This document shows positions 56,237-58,983 of a DNA stretch of 64,000 nt, piece after piece. The first letter of the stretch is position 1. Every line of letters starts with the position of its first letter. The DNA is from Gemmatimonadota bacterium. Its GTDB lineage: Bacteria; Gemmatimonadota; Gemmatimonadetes; Longimicrobiales; Gaopeijiaceae. A program made the position numbers and the translations under genes. The notes under the pieces are model-generated. The model was not told the origin of the DNA. It did not search any database and saw nothing but the letters and a program-made list of their open reading frames with translations. Location of the stretch: positions 1-64,000 of the forward strand of contig JAPPNN010000010.1 in NCBI GenBank assembly GCA_028873815.1, given 5' to 3'.

Positions 56237-57688
56237 ATGAGACTTCGCTTCGCCCCGTCACCCACGGGGTACCTTCATGTGGGAGGAGCGCGCACGGCGC
56301 TCTTTAACTGGCTGCTGGCGCGCGGGAACGGGGGCGCCTTTCTGCTGCGAATAGAGGACACCGACCGCAACCGAAGCCGGCCCGAGCACGTCGAGGCCAT
56401 CCTCGGCGGTCTCCGCTGGCTCGGCATCGACTGGGACGAAGAGCCCGTCTTCCAGGCCGACGGACTCGAGCGGCATCGGGCCGACGCGCTTCTCCTCCTG
56501 GAGCGGGGGAGCGCCTATCGGGACTTCACGCCGCAGGAGGAGTTCGAACGCGCACGGGACGCGGCCGTCGCAGCCGGGAGCGGAGCTGTGACCCGGCTCT
56601 CGCGGGAGCTCGCCGCGCGGGTGCCGGCGGCCGAGGCGGAGAGACGGGCCGCGGCCGGCGAGCCCTTCGCGGTACGGTTCCGGGTGCCCGACGGAAGCAC
56701 CACCTGGCGGGACATGGTGCACGGCGAAAAGCGCTTCGCCAACAGCGAGATCGAAGACTTCGTCATCCTCAGGGGGGACGGCACGCCCACGTACAACCAC
56801 GCGGTCGTATCGGACGACGCCCACATGACGGTTAGCCACGTGATCCGCGGCGACGATCACATCTCCAACACGCCCAAGCAGATCCTGCTGTACGAAGCGC
56901 TGGGGCACGAAGTCCCCGCTTTCGGGCACCTCCCCATGATCCTCGGTCCGGATGGCAAACGGCTGTCCAAGCGGCACGGCGCCCAGGCGGTGAACAGCTA
57001 CGAGGAGGAAGGCGTGCTGCCCGAGGCGATGGTCAACTTCCTCGCACTGCTGGGCTGGTCGCCCGGAACCGACGAGGAGCTGATGTCCCGGAACGAATTG
57101 GTCGTGCGGTTCACCATGGACCGGGTCCTGAAGAAGGGGTCGGTATTCGATCCCGCCAAGCTCTACTGGATGAATGGTAAGTACATGGGGCGCCTGGGCA
57201 CACGGGAACTCGCGGTACGGCTGCGGCGGACCCTGGCTTCGCGGCCCTCCCCGGCTGAAGCGTACGAACTTTCCGACGACGCGTTCCGGCGGATGACGGA
57301 GGCGCTGGCTCCCAGGAGCCGCTCATTTTCCGAAATGGCCACGCTGGCGGCCCCGTATGTTGGCCCGGTCACGAGCTACGACGCCAAGGCGGCGCGCAAG
57401 AGCTGGTACAGGAATCCGGGGGGTGTGGCGGAGGTCCTGAAGAGGGTGCGGGCGGAACTTGCCGTGGCGGAGTGGGAATCGGAGACACTCGAACAGTCGC
57501 TTCGCGGTCTTGCGGGGGACCTCGGCATGGGTGCCGGCAAGGTCTTCCAGCCGCTGCGCCTTGCACTGACTGGACTTCCGGCCTCGCCGGGTATCTTCGA
57601 CGTCCTTCTGATCCTGGGCCGTGAACGGTCCGTGAGGCGAATTGAGCGCGCGATCCACGCGATCGCGTCACACGCCGGGCCCGCCTGA
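56237..57688 (+). CDS. gltX: Glutamyl-tRNA synthetase
   Basis: A 483-aa class Ib synthetase that charges tRNA-Glu. FAPSPTGYLHVGGARTALFN carries the HIGH-type motif, RIEDTD follows, and KRLSKRHGA is the KMSKS-type motif. The C-terminal anticodon-binding cage is all-helical, as in bacterial GluRS. Residues 90-150 (SAYRDFTPQEEFERARD onward) have the usual editing-free insertion; no zinc cysteines are present. Whether it also charges tRNA-Gln cannot be told here. The ATG at 56237 is chosen because it sits directly before the first motif. Confidence 0.94.
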   Translation: MRLRFAPSPTGYLHVGGARTALFNWLLARGNGGAFLLRIEDTDRNRSRPEHVEAILGGLRWLGIDWDEEPVFQADGLERHRADALLLLERGSAYRDFTPQEEFERARDAAVAAGSGAVTRLSRELAARVPAAEAERRAAAGEPFAVRFRVPDGSTTWRDMVHGEKRFANSEIEDFVILRGDGTPTYNHAVVSDDAHMTVSHVIRGDDHISNTPKQILLYEALGHEVPAFGHLPMILGPDGKRLSKRHGAQAVNSYEEEGVLPEAMVNFLALLGWSPGTDEELMSRNELVVRFTMDRVLKKGSVFDPAKLYWMNGKYMGRLGTRELAVRLRRTLASRPSPAEAYELSDDAFRRMTEALAPRSRSFSEMATLAAPYVGPVTSYDAKAARKSWYRNPGGVAEVLKRVRAELAVAEWESETLEQSLRGLAGDLGMGAGKVFQPLRLALTGLPASPGIFDVLLILGRERSVRRIERAIHAIASHAGPA

Positions 57689-57726: not shown

Positions 57727-57755
57727 TTGCGAATCGGGCGGAGTGCGCCTAACAT
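57727..57755 (+). promoter_or_regulatory. Promoter of the lexA-like gene
   Basis: TTGCGA (57727-57732) and TAACAT (57750-57755) are spaced by exactly 17 bp. A transcript would begin near 57762, which rules out the GTG at 57743 as a start for the lexA-like gene and favours ATG 57797 or 57821. No SOS-box-like palindrome is evident around it. Confidence 0.6.
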
Positions 57756-57796: not shown

Positions 57797-58504
57797 ATGC
57801 GAACCGGACAGAAATCCGCCATGTCGTCAGGTCAGATATCCGGTGCCGCAGCCGCAACGGCGCTGAGCGAAATCGAACGGGGCATCCTCGACTTCATCGT
57901 CTTTTTCCTTCGGAGCAACACCTACCAGCCGTCGATCCGGGAAATCGGAAGGCAGTTCGGGATCAAGAGCACCAAGACGGTGTCCGAGCATCTCCAGGCC
58001 TTGGCGGACAAGGGATACATCGAGCGGGATCCTTCCCGTTCGAGGGGTGTGCGGATCCTGGGAATCGACCTCAACGCCGAATCCGTTTCGCTCCCTTGCT
58101 TCGAGGATCTGCGCGATGCGGTGCCCGGCAGACTCACCCGCAAAGCGGAAGGCTACATCACGCTTGACCGCCAGTTGGCCGGGGGAAAGGGGGCCTTCAT
58201 GGTGCGCGCCCCCCGGGATGTGCTTCCCAATGGGTCGGTCGCCGACGGGGACCTGCTCGTTGTCGCTCCCGTGGTGGCGGAGGAGTTGAGCGACGGCGAA
58301 GTGATCGTGGCGCGCGTGAGCGGAATCCCGGATTATTTCCGCGTCCAGCGAAGCAGGTCACAGGTGCTCCTTCACCCGCTGGGGCGGGACGGGGTACCCT
58401 CCCGCATGGACGAGCCGGCTTCGCTGGTGCTGGTCGGCCGGGTCACGGGGCTCTATCGCCGGGTCGATCCCGGTTCGTTCGCAAAGCCCTCCGTCGCGCA
58501 CTGA
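57797..58504 (+). CDS. LexA-like repressor lacking the self-cleavage residues
   Basis: About 235 aa. The N-terminal winged helix is LexA-type: ERGILDFIVFFLRSNTYQPS, IREIGRQFGIKSTKTVSEHLQALADKGYIER and RSRGVRI. The C-terminal domain follows the S24 peptidase fold (AEGYITLD, SVADGDLLVV, DGEVIVARV), but the catalytic Ser segment (GxSM in LexA) reads RAPRDV (codons 58205-58222), the catalytic Lys region (VTVKR) reads DYFRVQ, and the Ala-Gly cleavage site is not seen. It should bind DNA as a dimer but not be inactivated by RecA-triggered self-cleavage. Regulation by another signal, or constitutive repression, is inferred. Confidence 0.82.
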   Translation: MRTGQKSAMSSGQISGAAAATALSEIERGILDFIVFFLRSNTYQPSIREIGRQFGIKSTKTVSEHLQALADKGYIERDPSRSRGVRILGIDLNAESVSLPCFEDLRDAVPGRLTRKAEGYITLDRQLAGGKGAFMVRAPRDVLPNGSVADGDLLVVAPVVAEELSDGEVIVARVSGIPDYFRVQRSRSQVLLHPLGRDGVPSRMDEPASLVLVGRVTGLYRRVDPGSFAKPSVAH

Positions 58505-58551: not shown

Positions 58552-58983
58552 ATGGCACGGGCACTGGAGCTGGCACGCGCGGCGGCGCTTCGCGGAGAGG
58601 TGCCGGTCGGCGCTGTGGTCATCCGCGGTGGCAAGGTCATCGCGGAGGCTCACAACCGCACCGCCCAGGACAGCGATCCCACGGCCCACGCGGAGGCGCT
58701 GGCCATTCGGCGCGCCGCTCGTCGTCTCGCTGACTGGCGCCTGGAGAGGTGCACCCTGTACACCACCCTGGAGCCCTGCGCCCATTGCGCCGGGGCGGTG
58801 GTTCTCGCTCGGGTATCGCGTGTGGTCTTCGGTGCTGCGGACCCGAAGGCCGGCATGGCCGGGAGCCTGGAAAACCTCGTACAGGATCCGCGGCTCAACC
58901 ATCGTGTCGAGCTCCTCGGGGGTGTGCTCGCCGAGGAGTCCGGCGATCTGTTGCGCGGCTTCTTTCGGGCACGTCGAGGTTAG
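58552..58983 (+). CDS. tadA: tRNA-specific adenosine deaminase
   Basis: A 143-aa zinc enzyme that turns adenosine-34 of tRNA-Arg(ACG) into inosine. The active site is HAE (His46, Glu48) and PCAHC (Pro75-Cys79), with Gly-Ala-Val-Val before it and the closing RLNHRVELLGGVLAEE. The length is normal for bacterial TadA. It starts 47 bp after the lexA-like gene and probably shares its promoter. Confidence 0.93.
   Translation: MARALELARAAALRGEVPVGAVVIRGGKVIAEAHNRTAQDSDPTAHAEALAIRRAARRLADWRLERCTLYTTLEPCAHCAGAVVLARVSRVVFGAADPKAGMAGSLENLVQDPRLNHRVELLGGVLAEESGDLLRGFFRARRG

Follow-up and report, generated by a model that had tools for sequence, protein, structure and literature searches.

A conserved second LexA-family protein of Gemmatimonadetes with repeated loss of the self-cleavage residues that probably acts beside the canonical SOS LexA

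In the genome of a Gemmatimonadota bacterium, a gene at positions 57797..58504 of the forward strand of the window, i.e., of the whole stretch of 64,000 nucleotides analyzed here, encodes a LexA-family protein of 235 aa, predicted to be non-cleavable and referred to as P. Profile matches, alignments and comparison with relatives suggest that P is probably a functional, RecA-independent regulator of the LexA family, which probably has its own operator and exists beside a canonical SOS LexA. What is new here is a clade-wide second LexA in which cleavage was lost repeatedly. In the literature searched, neither a study of a Gemmatimonadota LexA nor a description of a Gemmatimonadetes SOS box was found, nor a second LexA at the level of a phylum that lost cleavage repeatedly while the SOS LexA stayed intact.

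The start codon of P is the ATG at 57797, which had been chosen previously from the sequence alone and proved correct, as this column is kept when 22 relatives, from the same genus or close to it, are aligned. P has the architecture of the LexA family, a winged-helix DNA-binding domain (DBD) followed by an S24 domain. The DBD (57860..58048, + strand) was assigned by LexA_DNA_bind (PF01726), which P matches with 71.8 bits (cut-off 23.7). Peptidase_S24 (PF00717) is matched with 23.5 bits, barely above the cut-off of 23.3, and the LexA equivalog TIGR00498 with 112.5 bits, a margin of 1.5 bits over the cut-off of 110.95. As TIGR00498 accepts P, automatic annotation would label it the SOS repressor. 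An AlphaFold model built from 18 orthologues (pLDDT 73) retains the LexA/S24 fold, with LexA structures as best PDB matches (E 6e-15) and a TM of about 0.7 for the C-domain. P resembles E. coli LexA in domain order, winged helix, S24 fold and C-terminal strand region. Another S24-domain regulator of the same genome (L012:1480-2259, − strand), which has GDSM and an in-register Lys, is phage-repressor-like and not a LexA.

The absence of the Ser-Lys dyad and of the Ala-Gly bond, claimed in the sequence-only reading, was confirmed by alignment to E. coli LexA, which is gap-free around the three sites. A84-G85 of E. coli correspond to Asp107-Ala108 in P (58115..58120), the catalytic S119 to Val142 (58220..58222) and the catalytic K156 to Phe181 (58337..58339, all + strand). 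At the scissile bond, LPLVGRVAAG of LexA is aligned with LPCFEDLRDA of P without gaps, and the stretches around the other sites are RVSGMSMKDIGIMDGD in LexA vs. RAPRDVLPNGSVADGD in P and ARIDDEVTVKRL vs. ARVSGIPDYFRV. A Ser and a Lys in register, on whose absence that reading had staked its claim, were not found elsewhere in P in this alignment. Two near relatives of P (96% and 89% identity) carry identical residues at these sites and the dyad is retained in none of 40 distinct homologues from the window's family, so that a one-off error does not explain the substitutions. Across the P family, the former Ser position is occupied by V, R, Q, A, E, D, or H and the former Lys position by F, Y, H, R, G, L, or others. 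P therefore lacks two hallmarks of a self-cleaving SOS LexA, the Ala-Gly bond (Asp-Ala instead) and the Ser-Lys dyad (Val and Phe). Its predicted inability to cleave itself is well supported by sequence, and with self-cleavage lost, control of P would most likely proceed by means other than damage-triggered self-cutting.

Orthologues of P are present in the families f1, f2, f3, f9, and most of f7 (Gemmatimonadaceae-like) and form a single clade in the tree (SH-aLRT 100). In the families of the class Gemmatimonadetes that carry P, the locus gltX-P-tadA is conserved; in the window, it comprises the glutamyl-tRNA synthetase gene gltX (56237..57688, start approximate) upstream and a tadA-like tRNA adenosine deaminase gene (58552..58983) downstream, both on the + strand and assigned by Pfam and synteny. 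Among 116 P loci, many of them short, gltX was seen in 91 and tadA in 78. The Ala-Gly bond, Ser and Lys are all intact in 18 of 95 P sequences, namely in all five sampled from f3, in two unplaced metagenome-assembled genomes (MAGs), and in part of f7 together with two Gemmatimonadaceae MAGs. A topology with all cleavage-less P in one clade was rejected (p-AU 8e-90). Parsimony requires at least six changes and a loss-only count gives eight losses (four in single sequences), numbers that are soft since the f7 part comes from a quick tree in which some branches are weak, and a few losses affect only one residue. In the tree, P groups neither within the canonical LexA of the phylum, f11 included, nor within the small sample of foreign LexAs. 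P was also considered as a within-class duplicate of the canonical LexA, which this position rejects; as judged from the tree, P arose by an old duplication or was acquired, and is not a recent copy.

Two matches to the LexA DBD were found in 19 of 23 same-genus genomes and three in one. Where examined, the genomes with two matches contain one canonical LexA and one orthologue of P. The Ala-Gly bond, Ser and Lys are kept in all 61 distinct canonical LexAs sampled, which include a few from outside the class Gemmatimonadetes. A third LexA of one same-genus genome (L066, G047 C70) is intact (VAAG, Ser, Lys) and very diverged.

The recA promoters of many families share the direct repeat TTCG(G/T/C)-N6-TTCGG. 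The SOS box TTCGG-N6-TTCGG, a direct repeat with a period of 11, is located upstream of 52 of the 61 canonical lexA genes, often twice, vs. one in shuffled sequences. Examples from the recA, lexA, and imuB loci are L248:1954, L250:1718 and 3926, and L180:7508 and 7533, all on the − strand. Most genomes of the class contain about 10–27 exact sites, compared to 0–5 for the reversed control, with 12 in a single genome. No excess of TTCGG-N6-TTCGG was found in the more distant family f11 of the phylum; there, a similar direct repeat TTTCGC..TTTCGC precedes lexA. The Gram-positive box CGAAC-N4-GTTCG was tried as well and is not enriched upstream of either canonical or P genes in the class. Upstream of P, the SOS box occurs in two of 95 sequences, the same number as in shuffled ones, so that P also lacks the autoregulation through the SOS box of a self-cleaving LexA. 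With boxes at canonical lexA, recA, and imuB and no excess at P, the SOS response of the class is most likely run by the canonical LexA, and the P gene is most likely not SOS-controlled.

As its DBD and C-domain are homologous to those of LexA and both proteins occur in one cell, P could act as a damage-insensitive SOS brake, which competes for or shares the LexA boxes or forms mixed dimers with LexA. This is rather unlikely, because canonical LexA and P are only about 27% identical, the recA box in genomes of the genus g51, which yielded no P, is unchanged in form compared to relatives with P, and the recognition helices differ. The helix of P, KSTKTVSEHLQ (57965..57997, + strand), is nearly invariant among P proteins and corresponds to SLATVHEHLtN in canonical LexA. 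With its own recognition helix, P probably binds an operator other than the SOS box. This helix, the distinct conserved clade and the co-occurring intact LexA also support the earlier suggestion insofar as P would be a second LexA-family protein with a separate role.

The promoter of P (57727..57755, + strand) consists of the −35-like block TTGCGA (57727–57732), a 17-bp spacer and the −10-like block TAACAT (57750–57755), both blocks being conserved in 22 relatives; it contains no SOS box. A self-operator was not detectable before the P genes, and a search for enriched palindromes and dyads before P, before gltX and downstream of P gave no operator. The signals for P agree with the gltX coding sequence (ATCTTCGA) and with −35-like elements (CTTGACAC, GTTGACCG), the one for gltX with tRNA sequence. 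A motif search in 1.46 Mb of the P-bearing 2-Mb genome G014 revealed no operator or target of P, a search that misses small regulons, as even the SOS box is too rare there for detection. Its strongest matches were a dispersed repeat and a CRP-like GTGA-N6-TCAC. The dispersed repeat (L270, L282, L286, L318, L328, L346) contains CTCAG-N8-CTCAG and GTGGC-N5-GCCAC, lies between short ORFs and is reminiscent of integron attC sites.

Within f1, the DBD is equally conserved in P and in canonical LexA (identity 0.79 each), whereas the C-domain identity is 0.41 for P vs. 0.74 for canonical LexA. In close pairs, dN/dS is mostly 0–0.1 (maximum 0.15) for the DBD of P and mostly 0.05–0.25 for its C-domain. 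The DBD has thus remained under strong purifying selection, while the C-domain diverged. The helix-turn-helix reads QPSIREIG..F.IKSTKTVSEHLQ nearly throughout P, compared to YAPSFEEI..F...SLATVHEHL in canonical LexA. Taken together, identity, dN/dS, and this conservation indicate that P is selected as a protein and probably reads a conserved operator; by the same measures, its C-domain is freed of the catalytic constraint, though not of every constraint. The degenerate, fast-diverging C-domain and the repeated loss of catalysis might also be expected of a functionless, decaying remnant, which is improbable given these dN/dS values, the open reading frame kept in every member sampled, and the conserved promoter and synteny. 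P is not a pseudogene.

The assembly that contains the window, a MAG with a completeness of 86%, has only one LexA DBD. The second, intact LexA that the sequence-only reading had suggested looking for was found in nearly all same-genus genomes, but not in the own MAG. P as the sole LexA of the species, with an SOS response controlled without RecA-induced cleavage, would agree with this single DBD. It is very improbable, since TTCGG-N6-TTCGG is retained before recA and before imuB of the own genome, intact LexA is present in nearly all genomes of the genus, and the missing genes point to the incomplete assembly. Of the lexA neighborhood of the relative G035, the rqcH side is present with 85% identity, while truA, trpD, lexA, and the trp genes behind it were not found in the own assembly. 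As these genes are missing as one block and the gene order is broken there, an assembly gap is the likely reason for the missing canonical lexA, which, judging from the relatives, presumably exists in the species. The idea that the SOS response is wired differently here is consequently unsupported. Equally improbable is a self-inactivation of the P C-domain by other chemistry, or its cleavage by a different protease in response to stress: the domain is under purifying selection and 38 of 40 sequences of f1 share Cys101, close to the former cleavage loop, but no substitute nucleophile is conserved at the active site and the former Ser and Lys positions are variable.

Like P, LexA of Synechocystis sp. 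PCC 6803 is a homologue without the scissile bond and the catalytic Ser; it has Gly-Gly for Ala-Gly and Asp for the Ser, regulates non-SOS genes, and its activity is thought to be set by modification (PMC3091678, PMC7567884). It belongs to another phylum and is described as the LexA of its genome, whereas P is an additional family member that accompanies a cleavable SOS LexA. LexA2 of Leptospira interrogans is, like P, a second LexA whose DBD has diverged, and has its own operator; unlike P, it is cleavable, with Ser, Lys, and a Cys-Gly bond still in place, becomes depleted upon UV exposure and binds the promoter of its own gene (PMC3789691). The S24 SOS regulators of Bacteroidetes are not LexA homologues and retain Ala-Gly and Ser-Lys; S24-family membership, paralogy, and diverged motifs are common to them and P, and duplication followed by motif divergence is the model described there (PMC8565304). 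From E. coli LexA, P differs in the missing scissile bond and Ser-Lys dyad, in its own recognition helix and in lying outside SOS control.

In the proposed role, the canonical cleavable LexA would run the SOS response through TTCGG-N6-TTCGG and P would coexist with it, expressed from its own, constitutive-looking promoter. DNA binding and repression by P are predicted from the DBD alone, and we infer dimerization and RecA independence. The S24 domain of the P proteins in the window's family would probably serve dimerization only, possibly also the binding of a ligand or partner. Most likely, P would be a dimeric, RecA-independent repressor set by its level, a ligand, modification, or a partner; the conserved Cys101 is a lead, no more, for its control. 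Extended to the clade, a second LexA regulon in Gemmatimonadota, in which the proteolytic switch was replaced repeatedly and independently by non-proteolytic control with the operator unchanged, can be proposed only tentatively and is rather doubtful; such control may be exerted by a ligand or partner, by modification, or by redox chemistry of the conserved Cys.

P is a warning that the TIGR00498 equivalog passes proteins incapable of the SOS switch, and the SOS box of the class Gemmatimonadetes was obtained as a by-product. In the P family, nature provides a series that begins with intact repressors, presumably switched by damage, and leads to several that became non-cleavable independently. 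As the DNA-binding helix hardly varies within this series, the retirement of a proteolytic switch without loss of the regulon becomes testable.
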